Origin: Gemmatimonas sp.
GTDB lineage: Bacteria; Gemmatimonadota; Gemmatimonadetes; Gemmatimonadales; Gemmatimonadaceae
DNA: 64,000 bases
Direction: 5' to 3'
Assembly (NCBI RefSeq): GCF_021298855.1
Contig: NZ_JAJTHI010000020.1
Coordinates: 1 to 64,000 of the forward strand
Position numbers and translations under genes: made by a program. Shown here piece by piece: positions 5,269 to 51,436 of this stretch. The notes under the pieces were generated by a model. That model was not told the origin of the DNA, searched no databases, and saw only the letters and a program-made list of their open reading frames with translations. Position 1 is the first letter of the stretch; every line of letters begins with the position of its first letter.

Positions 5269-7095
5269 TCACTTGCGGCCGAAGCGGCGATCGAGTTCAT
5301 CCCACGACAGACGGACGATGGTACTCCGGCCGTGCACATCGTGCGCGGCCAACCGGGTTTCCGCGAGCGCGATGTAGAGCGCCCGCATTTCGCCGGGAGA
5401 CAGCGTGTCGCCGGCCTTGACGGCCGCCTTGCACGCGAACGTGGCCGCCAGCCGTTCGTGACGCGCCTGCGTGCTGGGGGCCCGATCCCCGGTCATCGCC
5501 GCGAGGGTGTCACGGAGGCAGCGCTCGGCATCGAAGCGCGGATGCGGCATGGGCACGGCGTTCACGAGCAGGGTATGGCCGCCGAAGTGCTCGATCTCGA
5601 AGCCGAGCTTCACGAACAGGTCGCGGCTGCTCTCGAACGCCTCCGACTCGGCGGGGGCAAGGTGCAGCGTCATTGGGAAGAGCAGACGCTGCGACGGTGC
5701 CTCGCCGCGTTCGAGCACCCCCAGGAACTGCTCGTAGAGCACGCGCTCGTGCGCCGAATGCTGGTCGATGAGAATGACGCCATCGTCGTGTTCGAACATG
5801 AGATACGTCCGCCGCAGCTGCAGCAACGGCGGCACGACCATGGGCTCGTGGGGCGTGGCCACGTGGGCGTCGCCCTCGAGCGGTGCCGGCGCGGGCGCGC
5901 CCACGCCGCCCACTTCCTCCGCGAGCGATTCCCAGGGCGGTGTGTCGAAGGCGGGGGCCGCCGCCGCGTCGTGTGGTGCGAAGAGGCCATCCAGCGCCTT
6001 CGGCGTGCGCAAGGTGGCCGGCTCAATTGCCACGGGGGCGCTGCGCCATGCCGTCGACGTTGCCCCGGTCGGCGACCAGGTGCGCCAGCCACCGATATCG
6101 GCCGAGGCCTCGAACACGCCGAGCGCGCGCCGCACGGCCTGTTCGACCGCCCGTTCGATGGGCCAGCGATCGCGGAACCGGACCTCGGCCTTGGCCGGGT
6201 GCACGTTCACGTCCACATCGGCCCCCGGCACATGCACCATCAGGACCAGTGACGGCCGCACGCCCGCCGGCAGTGTGGACTTGTAGGCCGCTTCCGCCGC
6301 CCGTACCAGGCCGAAATCGCGCACCAATCGGCCGTTCACGATCAGCAGCACGCGCCGGGAGGCCGTGCCCACATCTGCCGGTCGTTCCACGAGGCCGGTC
6401 ACGTGCACCGGGCCCTGCACGTCGTCGACATCGACGAAGCGTTCCAGCTCGCGCGCGCCCCAGAGCGCGGCCAGCCGGGCACGCAGGGTGGGCACCGCCG
6501 GCAGATCGAGCGCCACCTTGCCGTCGTGGCGCAGCACGAAGTGCACATCGCGACGCAGTGTGGCAATGGCGTGCATGGCGTCGAGAATCGCACGCCATTC
6601 ACTGCGCGCGCTGCGCAGGAATTTCTGCCGAGCCGGCGTATTGAAGAACAGGCGGTGCACCGACACCGTAGTGCCACGGCGTCGCGCGGCGGCACGCGTT
6701 TCCTGCAATGCACCACCGGCCACGCGCACGAGGGTGCCGGCGCCATCCTCAGGGGCGGTCTCGATCTGCAACTCGGAAACCGACGCAATCGCCGGCAGCG
6801 CCTCGCCACGAAAACCGAAACTGCGCACCCCGACCAGTTGCTCGGCAGAGGAGATCTTGGACGTGGCATGACGCGAAAGGGCGAGCACCGCGTCGGTGGT
6901 GTCCATGCCGGAGCCATCGTCGGCAATGCGGATGAGCGCACGACCGCCGTCCTCGACGGTCACATCGACCGTGGTGGCGCCGGCGTCGAGCGCGTTCTCC
7001 ACCAACTCCTTGACCACCGATGCCGGACGTTCGACCACCTCGCCAGCGGCGATCTGGTCGGCAACAGCACTTGGCAGAACGGCGATTCGCGACAT
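5269..7095 (-). CDS. mutL: DNA mismatch repair protein MutL
   Basis: GHKL ATPase that couples MutS recognition to strand removal. It has 608 residues from the ATG at 7095. The N-terminal ATPase motifs are clear: VVKELVENALDAGA (27-40), DDGSGM (59-64), TSKI and GFRGEALPAI (94-103). A proline/alanine-rich linker spans about 330-420. The C-terminal domain has DQHSAHERVLYE (444-455) and ACKAAVKAGD (554-563), like the nicking-type MutL of bacteria without MutH. Two details differ: the DQHA motif reads DQHS, and the usual CPHGRP is DVHGRS (586-591). Its mutS partner is outside the window. It begins 8 nt after batDE and runs into miaA. Confidence 0.95.
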   Translation of the reverse strand: MSRIAVLPSAVADQIAAGEVVERPASVVKELVENALDAGATTVDVTVEDGGRALIRIADDGSGMDTTDAVLALSRHATSKISSAEQLVGVRSFGFRGEALPAIASVSELQIETAPEDGAGTLVRVAGGALQETRAAARRRGTTVSVHRLFFNTPARQKFLRSARSEWRAILDAMHAIATLRRDVHFVLRHDGKVALDLPAVPTLRARLAALWGARELERFVDVDDVQGPVHVTGLVERPADVGTASRRVLLIVNGRLVRDFGLVRAAEAAYKSTLPAGVRPSLVLMVHVPGADVDVNVHPAKAEVRFRDRWPIERAVEQAVRRALGVFEASADIGGWRTWSPTGATSTAWRSAPVAIEPATLRTPKALDGLFAPHDAAAAPAFDTPPWESLAEEVGGVGAPAPAPLEGDAHVATPHEPMVVPPLLQLRRTYLMFEHDDGVILIDQHSAHERVLYEQFLGVLERGEAPSQRLLFPMTLHLAPAESEAFESSRDLFVKLGFEIEHFGGHTLLVNAVPMPHPRFDAERCLRDTLAAMTGDRAPSTQARHERLAATFACKAAVKAGDTLSPGEMRALYIALAETRLAAHDVHGRSTIVRLSWDELDRRFGRK

Positions 7096-7103
7096 CCCGA
7101 AGT

Positions 7104-9374
7104 CTATCGGGTGGCGGAACGGTCCACGAGCGGGGCGAGACGGGCCGCGGGGATCCACCCGGTGCGGTCGTCGGCAAGCGCCACGCTGGACCAGCCCTCC
7201 TGACTGGTCAGCAGGCGAACGACATCGCCCGTGGAGACGCCACCCATCGTTGCCGCCTCGAAACCGGGGGCCGTACGCAGCGTCTCGGGACGACGCACCA
7301 CGGCCAGCGCCGAGGCGTCGAGGGCCCGGTGCCCCCACCACGCGGTTGCTCCCGCCGCCAGCGCTGCAGCCACCAGCACGGTGGCGAGTGACGACTGCCA
7401 GGTGCCGCCACGGTCCGTGCGCCATACCCATGCCAACAGCAACCAGCCGGCGCACCATGACACCAGCGCCATGAGAGCCAACGGTACCACCGGGATCATG
7501 GGAATGTCGGCGAGGCCGTTGCGTGCGCCGCTCGGCAATAACGACAACGCGCCCTGGATATCGGCGGCAAGCGGATCGAGCCGGGCCGCACGCTGCCAGG
7601 CGATGACGGCCGACACGGTATCGCTGGCCGCCCATGCTGCTGCGCCCCAATTGACCAGCAGGTCGACATCACCCGGGCACGTGGCTACGGCACCGGCGAA
7701 CCGTTCGGCGGCGCTGCTGAAGCGTCGCGCCTGGTACGCGGCGGTTCCCTCGCCCACCAGGAGATCGAGTACCGAAGGGGCCGCCCCGCGCGCCGCGTCG
7801 CCCGCGGGGCGCTCACACGCGGCCGAGGGCGGTGATGACGCCGGCACCGGCTCCTGTGCCCCGGCCGGGAGCGGTTTCCAGAGTGCCGCCGGCGCGAGGA
7901 TGAGGGCGACGCCCACGAGACGTCGCCCGCGACGGGCCAGGAGGCGCGTGCGGCCATGTGTCACGGCTTCCTCGTGGACGCGTTCGAGCAATCGGGCGGC
8001 GCGTGATTCGAGCGATGACGGCGCGGCATCGGTGTGCCCGTGAGGCGCGAAGCCCGCCACCGCCAGGTCGTCGAGCAGCTGCAGCAGCTCGCGCGTCGTG
8101 GCGCGCGTCACGCCACGGCGGCGCACGATGCGTTCGACATCAGCCGGCGTGACGAGATCGGCCACGGGTGCCTGCAGGCGTGCGGCGAGCTGCCCCAGCA
8201 CCGTGCGACGGGTGCGGCGGGCCACGCCGGCCGCACTGTGGTCGTCCGGTTGTGCCTCGCGCTTGCGGGCAGTGCCGGGTGCTGGCGCCAACGCGGCCCG
8301 TCGCCGGCGCGCCCGCTGCCAGCGCATCACGAAGGCCGGCAGCGGCGCCAGCACGAACAACGCCAGCAGCACCATGCGCCACCCGGCGGTCACGGTGTCA
8401 AGGGTGACGGGGGTGCGATGCCGCCAGGGACGCAACGCCGTCTGTTCACCGTCCTCGACCGTGGCGTTCTCGGCCAGATCTCCCGCGGCGACGCGCACGT
8501 CGGCGGGGCGCGTCTCCGCCACGAGATACGCTTCGCGATAGGGATCGAAGTACGGATAGCGCACCACGGGCAGCGTGACCGGCCCATCGCGCGTGGGGGT
8601 GAGCAGGTAGTCGAACTCCTTCACGCCGCGCACGAGCGTCCCCGTCGTATCGACCCGCACACGTTCACTGCCCCGCACCACCGTGGCCCAGGAGAGTTCG
8701 AGGGCCGGCGCGGGCAGCAGGCGCACGTTCCCCACGCCTTCGAGCCGCACCGTAAAGAGAAGCGGGTCACCCACCCGCACGGCGCTGCTGTCGAATCGCG
8801 CCGTGGCACTCAGCACACCGACGGCGCCGGTGAAGTCGGTGGGGCGGCCCTCGGTGGGCAGCGGCCGCACCACGACGTGCGCACTCTCGGCGCGCACCAC
8901 GTAGCGGTCTTCCCGGCTGAAATAGCTCGGCGATTGCGGCAGGCTGTACGTGAGCTGCGGCGCGGGGACCTGCAGCAGCCCTGCGGTCACGGCGAAGAGC
9001 GCGCGCTGAAAGACATGCGCCTCGTACGCGAGCCCGCCGCCGTAGCTGCGGGCGGCGACCCGCCTCGGCGTGCCGAGCTCAAAGGCCAGCATCCCGCGCA
9101 GCTCCGGCGGCAGAAACTCCGGATTGCGGCGCAAGCGGCTGCGCGCATCGTCGCTGAGCAGCACGGCCACCTGGTAGGTGACCTGTTGCCCCACGTAGAC
9201 GGAATCGGGGAAAACGGCCGCGTGAAAGTCGATGGGGCGATTGCCGGTGCTCCGAATGCGATTCACGATGGCCGTGGGCGAGGGCGCGGGCTGCGCCGCG
9301 CTCACCGCGGGCCACATGGTACACGTCAGCAGCGCGAGCACCCGCCGCGCCCGCTGCCAGAATACGGGGCTCAC
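7104..9374 (-). CDS. BatD-BatE fusion: BatD-like membrane protein with C-terminal TPR and SH3 parts
   Basis: A 756-residue envelope protein. It begins with a signal peptide (LLTCTMWPAVSAAQ). The periplasmic BatD-like beta-domains include DFHAAVFPDSVYVGQQVTYQ and DPLLFTVRLEGVGNVRLLP. A membrane segment follows near residue 330 (MVLLALFVLAPLPAFVM). The second half resembles BatE: a TPR-like stretch (AYQARRFSSAAERFAGAV...LLVNWGAAAWAASD), two more membrane segments, and a C-terminal bacterial SH3 domain (GVSTGDVVRLL...GWIPAARLAPL). BatD and BatE are usually separate genes in Bat (Bacteroides aerotolerance) loci. The GTG start overlaps batBC as GTGA at 9371-9374. A role with MoxR-type chaperones in envelope stress is inferred from family context. 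Confidence 0.85.
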   Translation of the reverse strand: MSPVFWQRARRVLALLTCTMWPAVSAAQPAPSPTAIVNRIRSTGNRPIDFHAAVFPDSVYVGQQVTYQVAVLLSDDARSRLRRNPEFLPPELRGMLAFELGTPRRVAARSYGGGLAYEAHVFQRALFAVTAGLLQVPAPQLTYSLPQSPSYFSREDRYVVRAESAHVVVRPLPTEGRPTDFTGAVGVLSATARFDSSAVRVGDPLLFTVRLEGVGNVRLLPAPALELSWATVVRGSERVRVDTTGTLVRGVKEFDYLLTPTRDGPVTLPVVRYPYFDPYREAYLVAETRPADVRVAAGDLAENATVEDGEQTALRPWRHRTPVTLDTVTAGWRMVLLALFVLAPLPAFVMRWQRARRRRAALAPAPGTARKREAQPDDHSAAGVARRTRRTVLGQLAARLQAPVADLVTPADVERIVRRRGVTRATTRELLQLLDDLAVAGFAPHGHTDAAPSSLESRAARLLERVHEEAVTHGRTRLLARRGRRLVGVALILAPAALWKPLPAGAQEPVPASSPPSAACERPAGDAARGAAPSVLDLLVGEGTAAYQARRFSSAAERFAGAVATCPGDVDLLVNWGAAAWAASDTVSAVIAWQRAARLDPLAADIQGALSLLPSGARNGLADIPMIPVVPLALMALVSWCAGWLLLAWVWRTDRGGTWQSSLATVLVAAALAAGATAWWGHRALDASALAVVRRPETLRTAPGFEAATMGGVSTGDVVRLLTSQEGWSSVALADDRTGWIPAARLAPLVDRSATR

Positions 9375-43373: not shown

Positions 43374-43829
43374 TTACTTCACCACGATCATCTTCTTCAC
43401 CAGCGGCACGCCATCCACCTCGAGGCGATACAGATACACGCCTGAGGCGGCCTCCCGCCCGGTTGCTTGGACTTTGCCATCCCAGTAGGCGACGTAATCA
43501 CCGCATGGGACCGCGATTTTTTCCAGCGGTTGACCACCGGCCACTCCGCTTGTTCCGCCCTGCAACACCGGGGTTGCCACCACGTCCGACAGGACGTTGT
43601 AAATCTTGAGGCTGACCCGGTACTGCCTTCCAGGCTGCGAACAGGTGGGCGCATCGCCCACGCTGAACGGAATGCGAGTTTCCGGATTGAAGGGATTCGG
43701 GTAGTTCTGCCCGAGGCTCGCTCCGGCGCGGCGCTCTCTCCCGTCTTGCGACGGTTGAGCCTCCGCGACTCGTGGCATGAACACGCTGAGAGCGAGCACC
43801 AGACCCAGTGCTCCCCACAAACGTTTCAT
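43374..43829 (-). CDS. Small secreted protein with NYPNPFNP motif (FlgD-like/C-terminal sorting-type domain)
   Basis: A 151-residue exported protein with signal peptide LVLALSVFMPRVAEAQ. The rest looks like one immunoglobulin-like FlgD/Por-tail domain: LGQNYPNPFNPETRIPFSVG, YRVSLKIYNVLSDVVATPV, YVAYWDGKVQATGREAASGV and YLYRLEVDGVPLVKKMIVVK. This domain is normally the C-terminal end of much larger secreted proteins in Bacteroidota and relatives; here it stands alone. The gene is monocistronic with its own promoter, an 80-nt leader and a strong terminator, which suggests high and separate expression. Its role is unknown. Confidence 0.85.
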   Translation of the reverse strand: MKRLWGALGLVLALSVFMPRVAEAQPSQDGRERRAGASLGQNYPNPFNPETRIPFSVGDAPTCSQPGRQYRVSLKIYNVLSDVVATPVLQGGTSGVAGGQPLEKIAVPCGDYVAYWDGKVQATGREAASGVYLYRLEVDGVPLVKKMIVVK

Positions 43830-44046: not shown

Positions 44047-44811
44047 CTACTTGAGGTTGGTCTCCCATTGTCCCTGTTCCCAGACCTGATAGGCCTTGAG
44101 CGGCCGCCGCTCCGGCAGATGCTCCAGGAGAAACTCCCGCAGCAGGCGCTGGTGCGCCCGTGCGGCACTGGCGTCGAGGGGCACCGGGTGCCCGCCGAGC
44201 CACGCCTCGAGCGCCGCCCGGGCGTCGGGGGGAAGCAACCGTCCCCCCGGTGTGCGCCGCGCGCAGGCGGCACACACCGTGCCCCCGGCCATTACCGAAA
44301 ACCGCGCCGTCAGCTGGGCCTCTACCGGAGCGTGGCATTCCGCGCAGTGCCCCACGCTGGGGCGAAAGCCCACTTCGGCCACGAGCCGCCAGAGCACACC
44401 CACGGTGACGGTGACGGTATCGTGAGGGGCAGCCGTTGCGAGCTGATCGAGCCCCTCCACGAGCGTTCCGTACGCAACCGGCGCCGCCTCGTCATGCACC
44501 AGCCGCAGGGCGCACTCGGCGATGGCGCTGGCCGCCGTGAAGCGACCGAGGTCGAGCGCCAGCGCCGGTCGCGCCGTCGTCACGTCGAAGCCCTGAAGGG
44601 CGTGCAGGTCGCGCCCCGGCTTCGTCTGGATCTGCGCCTGCCCTTCGGCGAACAGGTCGACGGCGCTCCCGAACCGTTTCCGCGAGGAGCGCGCCCCGCG
44701 CGCCACCACCGACTGCACCCCGGCCTCCCGGGTTACCAGCCTCAGGATGCGGCTGGACTCCAGGTAATCGGCCACGTGCAGCACGATGGCGTCGGTTTGC
44801 AGCAGGGACAT
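44047..44811 (-). CDS. recO: DNA repair protein RecO
   Basis: Mediator that loads RecA on SSB-coated DNA with RecR. It has 254 residues. The N-terminal OB-fold starts MSLLQTDAIVLHVADYLESS and continues VVARGARSSRKRFGSAVDLF. The C-terminal helical domain carries a C-x2-C...C-x2-C zinc site (HCAECHAP and VCAACARR). It is the last gene of the run that includes B12 uptake, 50 nt after the propeller lipoprotein; a separate promoter could not be defined. Confidence 0.94.
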   Translation of the reverse strand: MSLLQTDAIVLHVADYLESSRILRLVTREAGVQSVVARGARSSRKRFGSAVDLFAEGQAQIQTKPGRDLHALQGFDVTTARPALALDLGRFTAASAIAECALRLVHDEAAPVAYGTLVEGLDQLATAAPHDTVTVTVGVLWRLVAEVGFRPSVGHCAECHAPVEAQLTARFSVMAGGTVCAACARRTPGGRLLPPDARAALEAWLGGHPVPLDASAARAHQRLLREFLLEHLPERRPLKAYQVWEQGQWETNLK

Positions 44812-44861: not shown

Positions 44862-45977
44862 TCAGCGCAGGGCGAGATCCACGCCGCCCTGCCCGGCCGG
44901 TACGCGCCGGGTCTCCACCAGCGCGGGAGAAAAGACGATGAGCGAGGTGGCGGAGCCGGCGCCATTGACGATGCAGTGCAATCTGCCGAGTGCGTCTGCC
45001 TGTCCGCTGCCACAGGTCACCGGGGCGCCCGCGGCGGTACGCAGGTCCAGCCATGGGGTGGTGCCCGTGGTCACGACGGAGAGGTCGTCAGCGCGCAGCT
45101 TGAGGATGCGGCTGGTGAAGGTGGAGAGGTTCTCCGAGAGACTCACGTACAGGAAGCCGTCGAGTCCGCGCCTGGTGCCGGCGCCGAAGGTCCCGGCCGG
45201 CATGGGGCGAATCGTCTGCACGCGGCGCGCGGCCAAATCCACCTTGGCCACGGCGCCCGAAGCGATGAGCGAGAACGGGAAGCTGGCAAAGTTGGCTTCC
45301 CCGCCGGCGCTCACATACGCCACCTGCCCGACAATGACCGCCGACGCCCCCGACCCACGTACTCCTGGAAGCCTGATGGTATCCCGGGTGCCGCCGCTCG
45401 CGGGTATACGAATGAGCCGCACGTCGCCCTGCACCGCGTAATTCGTGCGACAGTTGCTGTTCGCATCCACCACCCACGTGGCATTGTCGTACTGGAACAT
45501 GTCGGTGGGACAGAGCCCCGCATTGGCGATGCGCGCAATGGTGGGAGCGGCCGTACCGGCCACCGACACCAGGGCGATGGCACTGGAGTCACGCAGCGCC
45601 GCGGCAATGAGGGCCTGCCCGTTGCTGCCGCGGAAGAGGCGCGCCCGCGAGGGATTGCTGCGCGGCGGCAGCTGGACGCGTCGGGCACTCAGGGCGCCGA
45701 TATCGACGATGTACAGCAGGTCGCCAGCGCCGCGGCTCGAGACCGTGAGGACCGTATCGCGTTCGAGCGTGAAGCCACCAGCGTCGAGTTCCGTTGGTGG
45801 GGCGAGCGGCAGCCGCGACGTGACCTGTCCGGTGTCACCGAGGAAGGTGAGACCGGGCTGAATGAAGCCGTCGAGCACGACGATACCGCGCGGGGGCTGC
45901 GGCGGAACGGCGATGGGCGTGGACTCCCCGCAGGCGGCTACGCCGAGCAGGGCGCTCAGGAGCGCGAGTTCACGCAC
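44862..45977 (-). CDS. Beta-propeller-like lipoprotein of the B12 uptake operon (BtuG-like candidate)
   Basis: A 371-residue lipoprotein. From the GTG at 45977 the signal ends at Cys16 (LLSALLGVAAC); a GTG at 46064 would add 29 residues. The rest has repeated YncE-like blades: DTVLTVSSRGAGDLLYIVDI, QALIAAALRDSSAIALVSVA, GDVRLIRIPASGGTRDTIRL, VAKVDLAARRVQTIRPMP and LYVSLSENLSTFTSRILKLR. It directly follows the TonB receptor behind btuF-C-D. In Bacteroides, BtuG, a surface seven-bladed propeller lipoprotein, binds B12 very tightly and docks on BtuB. The position and fold suggest the same job here, but sequence identity to BtuG is not claimed. Confidence 0.75.
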   Translation of the reverse strand: MRELALLSALLGVAACGESTPIAVPPQPPRGIVVLDGFIQPGLTFLGDTGQVTSRLPLAPPTELDAGGFTLERDTVLTVSSRGAGDLLYIVDIGALSARRVQLPPRSNPSRARLFRGSNGQALIAAALRDSSAIALVSVAGTAAPTIARIANAGLCPTDMFQYDNATWVVDANSNCRTNYAVQGDVRLIRIPASGGTRDTIRLPGVRGSGASAVIVGQVAYVSAGGEANFASFPFSLIASGAVAKVDLAARRVQTIRPMPAGTFGAGTRRGLDGFLYVSLSENLSTFTSRILKLRADDLSVVTTGTTPWLDLRTAAGAPVTCGSGQADALGRLHCIVNGAGSATSLIVFSPALVETRRVPAGQGGVDLALR

Positions 45978-46147
45978 GTGACGGGAAAGAGATGGGGCTT
46001 GAGGCCTGCGTGGCGGATGGACCGGGCGCGCATTACGCGGAGCGACAGAGAATTGGGTAGGCACAAGAGTGGCTCGGGGGGAGTGAACGGATCGGTCCTA
46101 CTGGCCAGTCGCGGTGTGCGTAACCACCCCGCGAACGTCGCCGCGCG

Positions 46148-48316
46148 TTACGTTCGCGGCTGCAGCGTGAGCGCGGCGGACCAGCCGCGTCCTGGCATGG
46201 GGAACCCACGTACCGACTGCCACCGCACCCCGGTGACGTTGTCGATGGTGAGGGAGACGAGCGCCTCGACCTGCGCCACGCGCTGTCGCCGAGCCCAGGC
46301 GACATCGGTGAGCGTGACCGATGGCAATTCGAAGCGTGGATCACGAGGGCCGGCCGTGAAGGGCCGACGCCCCTGATGCCGCACATTGGCACTGAGCGTG
46401 TGGGCACCGAAGCGCCAGAGCGCCTGGACCGCGCCGCTGTGCAGCGGCACGTAGGGCGTGGGAATGGTGAGGAGCCCGCTGCGCAGCGTGGACGCGTACC
46501 GCGTATGCCAGGCCGACAGGGTGATGGCGGGCGTGGTGAGCTCGACGCGCGACTCGGTCCCGCGCAGCCGCTCACGCCCCACGTTGGCCGGACTCCAGCC
46601 GAAGTTGCCGGGGAACCACACGATGGCGTCGCGCGTGTCGCGCGCCACGAGCAGCAGCTCGCCGGTGAGCCGACGATCTCCACGCTGCCACGCGCCCTGC
46701 GCCCCAGCATTGGCGTCGAGGGTGACCCGTTCGGCGCGCAAGGCGCGCACGAAGAGTCGTTGCGGCGAGGAGAAGTACAGATCGTAGAGGGTGGGCACGC
46801 GCACGGCCTGTGCCCCACGCGCCAGCAGCACCACGGAGGACCCACCCTGTGCGCCCCGCGCACGCCAAGCGAGGCCGGCGTTGGCCGTGGGCTGCACCCC
46901 GTTGCGTTCCACCGCATCGGCCCGCACGCCGATATCAAGATCGAGTCGCGGGACCCGCCCCGCGGTGCCGCTGGTGGCACGCTGCCACCCCCACGCGGCA
47001 AAGCCACGAGCGCGGCGCTGCGACAGGGCGCCCGTTCCGGTCAGCCCGTCGGCGCCGGTACCCACGCGCCACATGCCGTGCCAGGCCGCACCGCGCCACT
47101 CCACATCGCCCGCCCACGCGCGGGCCTGGGCATCGAGGGCGGGGCGCGCGGGATCGCGGTAGCGCAGGGCAAAGTGCCGCACGCCGGAGGTCAGCACGGT
47201 CGTGCCCCATGTGGTCTGTCCACGCAGCATCGTGCGTGTCGTCATCGACCGATCGTTGTCGAATGCCCGCACGTTGGCCGGTCCCACCATGCCGCGCTCA
47301 CCGGTGGAGACCAGCAGGTTCCACTGCGTGCGTGCGGCAATCAGCCCGCCACTGATGACCGCGCGGCGCTCGTCGTTGTTGATCCGCTGCTCCCGCACGG
47401 GTGCGGCGCCGGCCTCGTTCGTGAACGCGAAGTCGTTGGCCGCCTGCTGGAATGCCGCCGTGGCGTTCCACCGCACGCCCATGGCGCTGGCGGCCCACGC
47501 GGCTTCGGTGGCCACGTGACCGAAGGCACCGGTGCGCACGCTGACGGCCCGCTGCGAGGCGCTGGAGAGCGCCAACACGCCGCCCGCCGCGCCGCTGCCC
47601 GTCCCGACCGGGTCGGCGCCAGGACGCACGGTAGCCGACTGCACGGCCACCAATGGCAAGTCGGCCACGTCTGCCAATCCGGTGGCCGGGTCGTTGAGTG
47701 GCAAACCATCGAGCGTGATCACGACCTGTTCGCGCCGTGCACCGCGCAGCGACAGTCCCGACTCACCGCGCGCCGACCGGATGCTGGTATACGGCAGCAA
47801 CGTCACCACGCCGTTCATGCTCACCACACCGCGCTCGCGCGCCGACGTGGCGGTGATGGTGGCGGTGGTGGCTCCGGCGGGCGCCGTGGGCGCGCGCGCG
47901 ATGATGCGTTGCGTCTCGAGCACCGCCACGGTGTCGGCGGCCGCTCCCGCGTCGAGGCGGCCGCGGGAGGGCTGCAGATACAGCCGCAGCGTGTCGATGG
48001 TGGCGCCGGCCCGCCCGGTGTTACGTGCTGCGGTCGCGGACGGTGGCACGACGACACGCTGCGGCTCGTAGCCAATGCGCGCCACCCGCACCACGCCGGC
48101 GATGGATACCCGCCCGCAGCTGCTGGTGAGAACGCGGGAGGCCGCGCGTTCTTCGCGCACCGTGACTCCCACCACCGGGGCTTGCGTGACGGCATCGCGG
48201 AAACAGAGCGCCACACTGTCCGAAACCGCCAACGCCGGTGTCATGGGCGCCTGCAGCAGCCACCATGCGGCGGCGCTCGTGGGGCTCATCATGACGCTCA
48301 TCATGACGCCCATCAT
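46148..48316 (-). CDS. btuB: TonB-dependent outer membrane receptor, likely vitamin B12 (BtuB-like)
   Basis: A 722-residue outer membrane receptor. After an odd Met-rich N-terminus (MMGVMMSVMMS) and hydrophobic stretch comes a short carboxypeptidase-like domain (ALCFRDAVTQAPVVGVTVRE). A plug domain follows: VVTLLPYTSIRSARGESGLS, REQVVITLDGLPLNDPATG and SATVRPGADPVGTGSGAAGG. The rest is a beta-barrel ending in WSAALTLQPRT. The start at 48316 makes a 4-nt ATGA overlap with btuD. The ligand is inferred from the operon: riboswitch, BtuF, BtuC and BtuD precede it. No TonB/ExbBD genes are in the window. Confidence 0.88.
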   Translation of the reverse strand: MMGVMMSVMMSPTSAAAWWLLQAPMTPALAVSDSVALCFRDAVTQAPVVGVTVREERAASRVLTSSCGRVSIAGVVRVARIGYEPQRVVVPPSATAARNTGRAGATIDTLRLYLQPSRGRLDAGAAADTVAVLETQRIIARAPTAPAGATTATITATSARERGVVSMNGVVTLLPYTSIRSARGESGLSLRGARREQVVITLDGLPLNDPATGLADVADLPLVAVQSATVRPGADPVGTGSGAAGGVLALSSASQRAVSVRTGAFGHVATEAAWAASAMGVRWNATAAFQQAANDFAFTNEAGAAPVREQRINNDERRAVISGGLIAARTQWNLLVSTGERGMVGPANVRAFDNDRSMTTRTMLRGQTTWGTTVLTSGVRHFALRYRDPARPALDAQARAWAGDVEWRGAAWHGMWRVGTGADGLTGTGALSQRRARGFAAWGWQRATSGTAGRVPRLDLDIGVRADAVERNGVQPTANAGLAWRARGAQGGSSVVLLARGAQAVRVPTLYDLYFSSPQRLFVRALRAERVTLDANAGAQGAWQRGDRRLTGELLLVARDTRDAIVWFPGNFGWSPANVGRERLRGTESRVELTTPAITLSAWHTRYASTLRSGLLTIPTPYVPLHSGAVQALWRFGAHTLSANVRHQGRRPFTAGPRDPRFELPSVTLTDVAWARRQRVAQVEALVSLTIDNVTGVRWQSVRGFPMPGRGWSAALTLQPRT

Positions 48317-49134
48317 CGCGTGCGCCCCCGCCCCCGCAGCGGCAACAGCGCGGGCGCCCCCACCGCGGGGTCGCGTGTCACGACGAGTGGCCAGTCGTAC
48401 ACCGCCTCGAGAATCTCCCCGCGCATGACCGCGTCGGCATCGCCGGCGGCGGCCACGCGGCCCCGATGGAGCAGCACGATGGCGTCGGCGAAGCGCGCCA
48501 CGAGGTTGAGCTGGTGACTCACCAGCAGCACCGTGCGCCCCTCGCGCGCGAGGGCGTCCACGAGTTCGAAGACCGCCATTTCGTGCGCGATGTCGAGGAA
48601 CGTGGTGGGTTCGTCGAGCACCAGCACCGGCGTGTCCTGGGCGAGGGCCCGGGCAATGCGGACACGCTGCCATTCGCCGCCGGAGAGCGAGTCGGTGGTG
48701 CGGTCGATGGCATCGGCAATGCCGGCCCGCTCGACCGCCTGCTCCACCTGACTTCGGTCCTCGCGGGACGCGCCGCCGAAGGCACCTCGATGCGGGTGCC
48801 TGCCCAGCATGACGAACTCGCGCACCGAAAGCGGCATGCCTGGCTCCTCGCGCTGCGGCACCACGGCCACCTGCTGCGCCATGGCGCGTGACTCCATGGC
48901 CGCGATGGGTTCGCCTGCCAGCAAGATGCGCCCCGATGCCAGGGGCACGCGCCGCAGCAGCGCCCGCACCAGGCTGCTCTTGCCGCTGCCATTGGGCCCC
49001 ACCACCGCCGTCACCAGCCCCGGCTGCGCAACAAAGGACACATCCTGCAGCGCCGGCTGCGGGCGCCCCGGGTAGTGCACGCCCAGCGACTCGAAGGCCA
49101 GCGTGGCCCCCTGCCCCGACATCGTGGCGGTCAC
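48313..49134 (-). CDS. btuD: Cobalamin ABC transporter ATP-binding protein BtuD
   Basis: A 273-residue ATPase of the FecCD/BtuCD importer class. Walker A is GPNGSGKSS (46-54), the signature LSGGEWQRVRIARAL (150-164), Walker B LVLDEPTTFLD (171-181), and the switch His is in LLVSHQLNL. I use the GTG at 49134, which gives a GTGA overlap with btuC; an ATG at 49122 is the alternative. It powers the BtuC dimer. The sequence alone does not separate heme, siderophore and B12 types; the upstream riboswitch decides. Confidence 0.92.
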   Translation of the reverse strand: MTATMSGQGATLAFESLGVHYPGRPQPALQDVSFVAQPGLVTAVVGPNGSGKSSLVRALLRRVPLASGRILLAGEPIAAMESRAMAQQVAVVPQREEPGMPLSVREFVMLGRHPHRGAFGGASREDRSQVEQAVERAGIADAIDRTTDSLSGGEWQRVRIARALAQDTPVLVLDEPTTFLDIAHEMAVFELVDALAREGRTVLLVSHQLNLVARFADAIVLLHRGRVAAAGDADAVMRGEILEAVYDWPLVVTRDPAVGAPALLPLRGRGRTR

Positions 49135-50147
49135 GGGGTCACCTTGCGCAACTGCGACAGGAAGAACGGCACCCCGACGAGCGCGGTCACGGCCCCCAGC
49201 GGCAGTTCGGCCGGTGCGCGCAGCGTGCGCGCCAGCAGGTCGGCGGCCACGAGCAGCACCGCACCATACAGGGCCGACAAGAGCAGCATGGGGCGATGCC
49301 GGCGTGCGCCCAGCGCTCGCGCGAGATTGGGCACCACCAGACCCACGAACCCAACCAGCCCGGCAGCGGCAACGGTGGCCGCCGCGAGCCAACTGGCCAC
49401 CAGAAACAGCGTGCGCGATGCGCGCTCCACATTCACCCCCAGTGCAGCGGCCGGTTCGCCCCCAAGCGCGAGCACGTCGAGATCGCGCGCGCGCCAGACG
49501 AGCACGCTGCCCAGCAGCGCCAGTGCCACGGCACTGCGCCCCACGGCGCTCCACGATGCATCGGCCGCGCTGCCCATCATCCACCAGAGCGCCCCGCGCA
49601 ACCGTTCCGGCGGCGCATCGGCGAGCGCCACGAGGATGGCGGCATTGGCAAAGGCCCCCACGACCACTCCGGCCATGAGCAGCAGGCGGGTATCACCGCT
49701 CCCTCCCACCACGCGGGCGAGCGCCGTCACGAGCAGCGTCGCCGCCGCGGCGCCGGCAAAAGCGCACCCGGTGATGAGCGCCGGTGCGTCGACGCCCAGC
49801 GCCATGGCGGTCACCGCCCCCACGGCGGCCCCGCCGGATACCCCCAGCAGATACGGCTCAGCCAGCGGATTGCGCATGGTCCCCTGCAGCGCGCCGCCAC
49901 TCATGGCGAGCCCGGCGCCCACCAGCGCGGCCAGGAGCACCCGCGGCAACCGCAGCTCCCGCACGATGGACACACTGGCCGCATCACCCGATCCACGCAG
50001 GGCATTGATCACGGTGTCGAACGGCAGCGACACAGCACCCAGGGCGATCGCCAACAGCGACACGATCACGAGCAACACGACCCCAAGCACCCACGGCCAG
50101 GCCCCGCGGCCGGCCGCTGTGTGGGGGCTCACCTCGGTCCGTGTCAT
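49131..50147 (-). CDS. btuC: Cobalamin ABC transporter permease BtuC
   Basis: A 338-residue FecCD-family permease with about ten membrane helices. Family marks are RELRLPRVLLAALVGAGLAMSGGALQGTMRNPLAEPYLLGVSGGA near residue 63-107 and LVGFVGLVVPNLAR near 265, followed by the end LPLGAVTALVGVPFFLSQL. It overlaps btuF by four bases (ATGA at 50144-50147) and btuD by four (GTGA). It forms the inner-membrane channel with BtuD and receives ligand from BtuF. Confidence 0.94.
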   Translation of the reverse strand: MTRTEVSPHTAAGRGAWPWVLGVVLLVIVSLLAIALGAVSLPFDTVINALRGSGDAASVSIVRELRLPRVLLAALVGAGLAMSGGALQGTMRNPLAEPYLLGVSGGAAVGAVTAMALGVDAPALITGCAFAGAAAATLLVTALARVVGGSGDTRLLLMAGVVVGAFANAAILVALADAPPERLRGALWWMMGSAADASWSAVGRSAVALALLGSVLVWRARDLDVLALGGEPAAALGVNVERASRTLFLVASWLAAATVAAAGLVGFVGLVVPNLARALGARRHRPMLLLSALYGAVLLVAADLLARTLRAPAELPLGAVTALVGVPFFLSQLRKVTP

Positions 50148-51130
50148 GGGAGCGAATCGGCGAGCGTGGGGTGCAGCGCACGGGCGAGCTGCACGGCGGC
50201 CATGCCGAGCACCACCGAGGGGCGTCCGGTCACGGCCGGATCATGACGCACGAACTGCTGCGCCCGCACGGCGGGGAGCGCCCGCCACGTATCGTCACGG
50301 CCCAGCGACGCCATTTGCGTGTCGCTCGCCATCACGTACTGCGGCGCCCGCGCGATGATCTCTTCCATGCTCACGCTTGGCGATGGCTGGGGGGCGTCGT
50401 GGAAGACGTTGCGCGCTCCGGCGATTTCGAGCAGCTCGTCCATGTAGCTGCCGCCACCGATCACCATGGGGGGCGTGCTCCACACCGGCCATACCACGGC
50501 CGGCCGGCCGGCCAGTCTCGCTGTCTGCGCACGCACGCGATCGAGGGTGCGCTGCACGGAGTCACTCACCACTGCAGCCCGCGACGACGCCCCGAGCGCC
50601 ACGCCCAGTACGCGCAGCTGCCGGTGGAAGTGCGCGATGCGATCCACGCGCAGCGCGATGGTGCGCACACCGGCCCGCGTGAGCGCGTCGGCCACGGCAC
50701 GGTTCTCGGCCGTGGCGTAGAGCACCACCAGCGTGGGGCGTGCGGCCAGCACCGCCTCCAGCGACGGGCGGAGGCCATCGGCAATGGCCGGCACGCGCGC
50801 CACCGCGGCGGGATAGCGATCCCATCGGGAGCGACCAACGAGTACGGAGTCGGCACCGATCGCAAACACCGCCTCGGTGGCCGCCGGATTGAGCGACACG
50901 ACCCGCCGCGCGTAGCGCGCGTCGATGGGCAGCGCCACACCGAAATCGTCGGTATCGGCCGGTGCGATGGCACGTACGCCATGCGCCACCGCGGACGGCA
51001 CGCGCGAGGCTTCGGCAGCGCCGGCCGCGGACGACGAACGGCTGGAATCGCCGCACGCCGCAACGACGATGCCCGGAACGAGCACCAGCCATCGACGTGC
51101 GCGGCGTACCAATCGTGGGTGAGGAAACAC
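50144..51130 (-). CDS. btuF: Cobalamin-binding periplasmic lipoprotein BtuF-like, riboswitch controlled
   Basis: A 328-residue class III solute-binding protein. I place the start at the GTG at 51130 because GAGAGGA sits 9 nt upstream and the resulting signal (MFPHPRLVRRARRWLVLV...) leads straight to the lipobox Cys26. An ATG at 51172 and a GTG at 51184 in the same frame are less likely. Folds and motifs fit BtuF: RRVVSLNPAATEAVFAIGA, DSVLVGRSRWDRYP, PAIADGLRPSLEAVLAARPT and VWPVWSTPPMVIGGGSYMDE. It is first in the transport operon, directly behind the cobalamin aptamer; its ribosome site is buried in a hairpin. Confidence 0.92.
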   Translation of the reverse strand: MFPHPRLVRRARRWLVLVPGIVVAACGDSSRSSSAAGAAEASRVPSAVAHGVRAIAPADTDDFGVALPIDARYARRVVSLNPAATEAVFAIGADSVLVGRSRWDRYPAAVARVPAIADGLRPSLEAVLAARPTLVVLYATAENRAVADALTRAGVRTIALRVDRIAHFHRQLRVLGVALGASSRAAVVSDSVQRTLDRVRAQTARLAGRPAVVWPVWSTPPMVIGGGSYMDELLEIAGARNVFHDAPQPSPSVSMEEIIARAPQYVMASDTQMASLGRDDTWRALPAVRAQQFVRHDPAVTGRPSVVLGMAAVQLARALHPTLADSLP

Positions 51131-51133
51131 GAA

Positions 51134-51163
51134 CGGGCATCCTCTCCCACGAGAAGACGCCCG
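51134..51163 (-). promoter_or_regulatory. Hairpin sequestering the btuF ribosome-binding site
   Basis: On the minus-strand RNA, 51151-51163 pairs with 51134-51146 over 13 bp (two G-U pairs), with loop GUGG (51147-51150). The 3' arm contains the Shine-Dalgarno GAGAGGA, and the helix ends 3 nt before the GTG at 51130. It is the likely OFF structure of a translational cobalamin riboswitch. Confidence 0.75.
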
Positions 51164-51239
51164 AGCACCCATGACCCACGCCACGCCAACGACGTTGTCA
51201 CGTTTGCACGAGCCCCCCCTCGAGGGTCTTCGTCAAAGA

Positions 51240-51436
51240 ATGAGCGCGGGTCGTCTCCTGGCTCCGGGCCACGACACTCACCTTCCCGATCGAACCGATC
51301 AGTGGTGTATGGAGTGCCGCTGCTGCAGCGCCTATCGCGATGCAGAGCCCGTTACAGTGGCGGGGCCGCGCCGGTGTTGCACCGGCTTCCGTGTCCCGCG
51401 CTCGAAATCAGTTGTGCGTCACGCCCTGTGCGTGAC
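51240..51436 (-). ncRNA. Cobalamin (B12) riboswitch aptamer
   Basis: Conserved core elements appear in order on the minus strand: GGAAGCCGGTG (complement of 51380-51390), the paired CACCGG, then CGCCACTG of the B12 box (complement of 51355-51362), and at the 3' side GGAGCCAGGAGAC (complement of 51253-51265). A 7-bp hairpin (51418-51424 with 51430-51436) opens the RNA at the predicted start. Length and order match the adenosyl/methylcobalamin riboswitch class. It precedes btuF; outer limits are approximate. Confidence 0.92.

Follow-up and report, generated by a model that had tools for sequence, protein, structure and literature searches.

A putative BtuG-like propeller lipoprotein encoded in a cobalamin riboswitch gene cluster of Gemmatimonas

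A lipoprotein encoded in a btu gene cluster of Gemmatimonas sp. is predicted to fold into a seven-bladed propeller, and its nearest structural matches by Foldseek are the BtuG proteins of Bacteroides. We consider it fairly probable, by analogy, that this protein captures vitamin B12 and works with an adjacent BtuB-like receptor in the manner of BtuG, B12 binding and surface exposure being predicted. The proposal builds on a lipoprotein signature, a btu cluster headed by a cobalamin riboswitch, linkage of lipoprotein and btu genes across the phylum, and one genome in which the lipoprotein and btuB are missing together. An earlier note on this DNA had suggested that the gene, part of a B12 operon outside Bacteroidota, might encode a BtuG-like propeller lipoprotein, a suggestion that the structural comparison bears out.

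The window, i.e. the whole stretch of 64,000 nucleotides that was analysed, carries the cluster on its minus strand in the order riboswitch, btuF, btuC, btuD, btuB, lipoprotein gene and recO (Table 1). As the note had stated, the lipoprotein gene follows the TonB receptor gene directly and belongs to the cluster with the riboswitch. The gap to the receptor gene measures 170 nt; recO begins a further 50 nt downstream. Order and strand suggest that the lipoprotein gene is co-transcribed with the btu operon. An inverted repeat across the btuB stop codon may be a processing or termination mark between btuB and the lipoprotein gene; among five aligned loci, it recurs in near-identical form only in G078. 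The BtuF-like protein appears to be membrane-anchored, since it carries a lipobox. Behind recO, positions 43374-43829 encode a small protein that weakly resembles type IX secretion sorting domains and shows high conservation within the same family.

Table 1. Features of the cobalamin gene cluster in the window
Feature	Position	Strand	Basis
Cobalamin riboswitch aptamer, heading the operon	51231..51415	-	RF00174, 70.6 bits (gathering score 31.5), full model 1-189
btuF-like substrate-binding protein	50144..51184	-	PF01497 2.1e-27; top NCBIfam model BtuF, below cut-off; lipobox CGDSSR
btuC-like permease	49131..50147	-	PF01032 1.7e-82; top NCBIfam model BtuC, below cut-off
btuD-like ATPase	48313..49122	-	PF00005 6.7e-32; top NCBIfam model corrinoid ABC transporter ATPase, below cut-off
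BtuB-like TonB-dependent receptor	46148..48316	-	PF07715 3.2e-9; TIGR01779 5.5e-11, below cut-off; pLDDT 80.7
10-bp GC-rich inverted repeat across the btuB stop codon, without T run	46129..46159	-	Read from sequence; arms CCGCGAACGT...ACGTTCGCGG
Predicted propeller lipoprotein (main finding)	44862..45977	-	Lipobox; pLDDT 89.8; BtuG at Foldseek ranks 1-14
Signal peptide, lipobox and lipidated cysteine	45930..45977	-	Sequence; relatives align at the cysteine
recO, downstream neighbour	44047..44811	-	PF11967 4e-19, PF02565 5.3e-16

The lipoprotein gene opens with GTG, encodes 371 amino acids and is present in a single copy in its genome. Its product begins with a short signal peptide, MRELALLSALLGVAAC followed by GES, which ends in a lipobox (LLGVAAC before GES). 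A longer reading frame from GTG 46064 is possible; the lipobox cysteine of the shorter reading aligns with the cysteine of the relatives, among which it is conserved. Apart from this lipidated residue, four cysteines are invariant in the window branch. The mature protein has a net charge of +7. Searches of Pfam, NCBIfam and, with the single sequence, the PDB returned no significant match, and the YncE-like blades described in the note thus escape these family models. Yet the predicted structure matches seven-bladed propellers along its full length.

The AlphaFold2 model, built from 27 related sequences, is all-beta, comprising 27 strands without any long helix (pLDDT 89.8, pTM 0.89). Compared by Foldseek with 350,542 PDB chains, the lipoprotein model, the one propeller of this genome examined in this way, ranked BtuG structures 1 to 14 (E 8.9e-11 to 1.1e-8, TM 0.61 to 0.66, 10 to 12% identity), ahead of NirN at 2.6e-8. 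The fold check proposed in the note therefore gives a propeller with BtuG first. VIA-align draws no line between BtuG and the remaining seven-bladed propellers, as the Z-scores of BtuG1 (26.1), 6-phosphogluconolactonase (25.7) and a YVTN protein (25.1) are close, and we count this tie against the BtuG-like reading. Trp194 could be located in BtuG2; the window branch aligns with too little certainty to place the pocket residues Trp194, Trp272 and Tyr316, and the same holds for the hydrogen-bonding residues of BtuG blades 1-4.

The receptor gives a complementary picture. By sequence it is weakly BtuB-like: TIGR01779, the BtuB model, is still its best-scoring NCBIfam model, at 41.7 bits against a curated cut-off of 599.7. 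It contains a PF07715 plug preceded by an additional beta-rich N-terminal segment that sets it apart from the BtuB proteins of B. theta and E. coli. The predicted structure, a plug with a barrel, finds BtuB at ranks 1 to 7 of the Foldseek search: BtuB3, BtuB1 and BtuB2 of B. theta occupy ranks 1-4 and E. coli BtuB ranks 5-6 (ranks 1-5, E 1.4e-27 to 5.1e-25). The modelled fold is thus nearest to the BtuB proteins that partner BtuG. Modelled separately, lipoprotein and receptor each find their half of the Bacteroides BtuB–BtuG pair, and both rankings argue for B12 capture with BtuB.

Whether the lipoprotein is homologous or analogous to BtuG had been left open in the note. Profiles were built from the window branch (A1), from f2, f5, f6 and f9 (A4) and from f7 (A5). 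A1 matches A5 at 3.1e-24 and A4 at 2.5e-17, and A4 matches three BtuG-like sequences of Bacteroidota, taken from plasmids, at 4.1e-10 (probability 96.7). The direct match between A1 and BtuG is weak (probability 57), so the sequence link runs through the intermediate branches. In the PDB, A4 matches the archaeal YVTN protein 1l0q (2.3e-17) more strongly than BtuG1 (2.6e-10). The profile chain and the BtuG1 match speak for the proposal, the weak direct match and the YVTN protein above BtuG against it. From these comparisons, homology is claimed within the YncE/YVTN superfamily as a whole and not for BtuG in particular.

Strict membership of the BtuG family is not borne out. In common with BtuG, the window protein has the predicted seven-bladed fold, a lipobox and, like the products of 18 same-family loci, a gene adjacent to btuB in a riboswitch-headed btu cluster. 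DUF5074 (PF16819), which the three Bacteroidota sequences match at 1e-13 to 4e-10, has no match in the window protein nor anywhere in its genome. BtuG2 has a net charge of -18, held to draw B12 over distance (PMC10404256), in contrast to the +7 of the window protein, which also counts against the BtuG-like reading. Because both the domain match and the negative charge are absent, we do not file the protein as a BtuG family member; the tied Z-scores point the same way. Judged by predicted fold and context, it would nevertheless work like BtuG.

Relatives are widespread in the phylum. Of the 395 Gemmatimonadota genomes sampled, a search with the window protein alone retrieves them from 32 (three of the matches are weak), a profile including the first distant relatives from 69, and the distant-branch profile A4 from 114 at E 1e-15 or better; the union of the searches, which omits two weak matches, covers 156 genomes. 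The named records with relatives belong to Gemmatimonas and other Gemmatimonadota, in agreement with the placement outside Bacteroidota that the note had given. The one record titled otherwise, Candidatus Kuenenia stuttgartiensis (L058, CALQGY020000022.1), contains a Gemmatimonas-type operon on a contig equal in length to that of the same-genus genome G218 and is probably a mislabelled bin. Viral contigs yielded no BtuG, and the plasmids searched no relative of the Gemmatimonadota type.

A survey of btuB neighbours, also proposed in the note, found the pairing of btuB and lipoprotein across the phylum. All 18 neighbourhoods retrieved from the same family, at identities as low as 35%, show the order btuF-C-D-B-lipoprotein; recO comes next in 17 of them, and each of the 17 loci searched has a cobalamin riboswitch. 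Synteny in this family begins with the gene that precedes the riboswitch and extends as far as clpB. This broad synteny, together with the 170-nt gap and its inverted repeat, could mean that the gene is a passenger held between btuB and recO with no role in B12 uptake, a reading which we judge very improbable and reject because the linkage to btu genes survives rearrangement: other families show btuB-lipoprotein-btuF-C-D (L122), btuF-C-D-B-lipoprotein without recO (L116) or btuB-lipoprotein (L120, L121), L157 and L158 likewise keep the linkage, and btu genes lie at most 1.5 kb away in 28 of the 30 best A4 loci, the other two being near contig ends. Conserved order, riboswitch and linkage in other families are counted for capture with BtuB.

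The same neighbourhoods bear on a further alternative, in which the lipoprotein is a periplasmic shuttle. In several f2 and f7 genomes it directly follows btuD with no btuB adjacent, and a BtuB-like receptor is encoded at another site beside a separate riboswitch (TIGR01779 2.8e-62 to 7.7e-74 for the three scored). This separation counts against the BtuG-like reading and leaves room for a role of the lipoprotein near btuFCD. In f5, f6 and f9, by contrast, the lipoprotein stands directly behind btuB. Moreover, the same-genus genome G067 has btuF-C-D-recO at the syntenic position. There btuFCD is present and neither btuB nor the lipoprotein gene is, which supports the view that btuB and lipoprotein form a unit. 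A second cluster of G067, beside cbiB and other cobalamin genes, holds btuF-C-D-B with a distant-branch lipoprotein. Branches of the lipoprotein can coexist, since G042 (f7) carries one beside btuB under a riboswitch (L151, contig 21) and another in front of recO without btuB (L103, contig 31). In f2 genomes (L150, 4178-7095; L153, L154) a cobalamin riboswitch, a BtuB-like receptor and a diphthine-ammonia-ligase-like ATP pyrophosphatase occur together.

Localization was further considered through the residues behind the lipidated cysteine. Among rows that are related to each other and in part hand-picked, 2 of 43 lipoproteins have a basic residue at +2 to +6 compared with 19 of 26 BtuF proteins, and 33 of 43 against 9 of 26 have an acidic one at +2 to +4. 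The tail of the lipoprotein is thus unlike that of periplasmic BtuF, which argues against the shuttle, and it resembles the acidic export signals described for Bacteroidetes (PMC5080379) without matching them. The window sequence CGESTP fits neither C-X-K-(D/E)2 nor S-D-D-D-D, a Bacteroidota consensus which may not be that of this host; the lack of an exact signal is counted against the BtuG-like reading, the acidic tail for it. Given this choice of rows, and since the window's own BtuF begins with CGDSS, the tail is only suggestive of surface export. Clear as the contrast with BtuF is, we do not take the tail for proof of such a signal. To our knowledge, no export signal for surface lipoproteins has been described in Gemmatimonadota, a circumstance that favours the shuttle. 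The closest folds, in turn, are surface lids. On balance we regard a periplasmic shuttle as unlikely, though it is the strongest competitor of surface capture with BtuB.

Alternatively, the lipoprotein could be a propeller of the YncE type that serves corrinoid metabolism or envelope assembly in some other way, e.g. as a receptor scaffold or as an enzyme with cobamide substrates, and not capture B12 itself. The Z-scores shared with lactonase-type (1ri6, 6nau) and YVTN (1l0q, an archaeal S-layer protein) propellers, all of the same fold superfamily, are compatible with such a role, as are the positive charge and four invariant cysteines of the window branch and the pocket residues that resist confident mapping. 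We know of no description of the 1l0q, 1ri6 or 6nau proteins as parts of a B12 uptake operon. With BtuG first in Foldseek and BtuG-partnered BtuB as the top matches of the receptor, we find this role rather improbable.

Among known systems, BtuG1, BtuG2 and BtuG3 of Bacteroides (PDB 8blw, 8ptf, 8bmy, 8okv, 3dsm; PMC6143338, PMC10404256) are the closest counterparts, alike in predicted fold, lipobox, BtuB-like neighbour and riboswitch-headed btu cluster. BtuG proteins themselves are marked by femtomolar to picomolar affinity for B12, exposure at the cell surface and a complex with BtuB. The window protein differs in coming from another phylum, in sharing about 11% identity and, besides the domain and charge differences given above, in its four extra invariant cysteines and in lacking the exact export signal; in some Gemmatimonadota branches, moreover, the lipoprotein is encoded apart from btuB. 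The xenosiderophore uptake system XusA–XusB of Bacteroides (PMC13142918; PDB 9gbc, 9hqk) likewise places a propeller lipoprotein as a lid on a TonB receptor. Its ligand, however, is an iron siderophore, it has no cobalamin riboswitch or btuFCD, and its fold matches are weaker than those of BtuG and BtuB, with XusB at rank 39 of the lipoprotein search and XusA at rank 16 of the receptor search.

The genome itself encodes four B12-binding domains and no detectable CobS. Complete B12 therefore probably reaches the cell by uptake alone, and we count this in favour of capture. A second cobalamin riboswitch (G000, contig 53, 19505-19704, minus strand, 115 bits) lies upstream of a ribonucleotide reductase gene (locus L149, ORF 6867-9299) whose product combines an ATP cone with weak similarity to the insertion domain known from B12-dependent reductases. 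Should this reductase depend on B12, one would not expect a B12 riboswitch to control it.

From fold and context together, we infer that the lipoprotein binds B12, sits in the outer leaflet, pairs physically with BtuB and is under riboswitch control. In the proposed mechanism, the lipid-anchored propeller would bind cobalamin or other corrinoids, cover the adjacent BtuB-like receptor and pass the captured vitamin on. The receptor would import it in a TonB-driven step, and BtuF and BtuCD would complete its passage through the inner membrane. When B12 is plentiful, the riboswitch would lower expression of the operon.

In 2018 BtuG homologues were described as confined to Bacteroidetes, following BLASTP searches of 313 human gut genomes (PMC6143338), a statement that deserves revisiting. 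Our literature search found no paper that names BtuG together with Gemmatimonadota. We see an even balance for and against the broader view that B12-capture propeller lipoproteins form a second lineage throughout the Gemmatimonadota, arisen by independent recruitment of a YncE-type protein or by an ancient split from BtuG, with a different charge design in the window branch and with some lineages uncoupled from the btuB gene. Net charges run from +7 to -7 in the window's taxonomic family and from -3 to -35 in distant members; with both strongly negative and positive proteins, the family offers a direct test of whether B12 capture needs long-range electrostatic attraction. If these lipoproteins bind B12, lid-assisted TonB-dependent vitamin uptake would reach a second, mostly environmental phylum, surface-exposed lipoproteins in Gemmatimonadota would be implied, and surface capture of B12 would be a broader strategy than gut competition.
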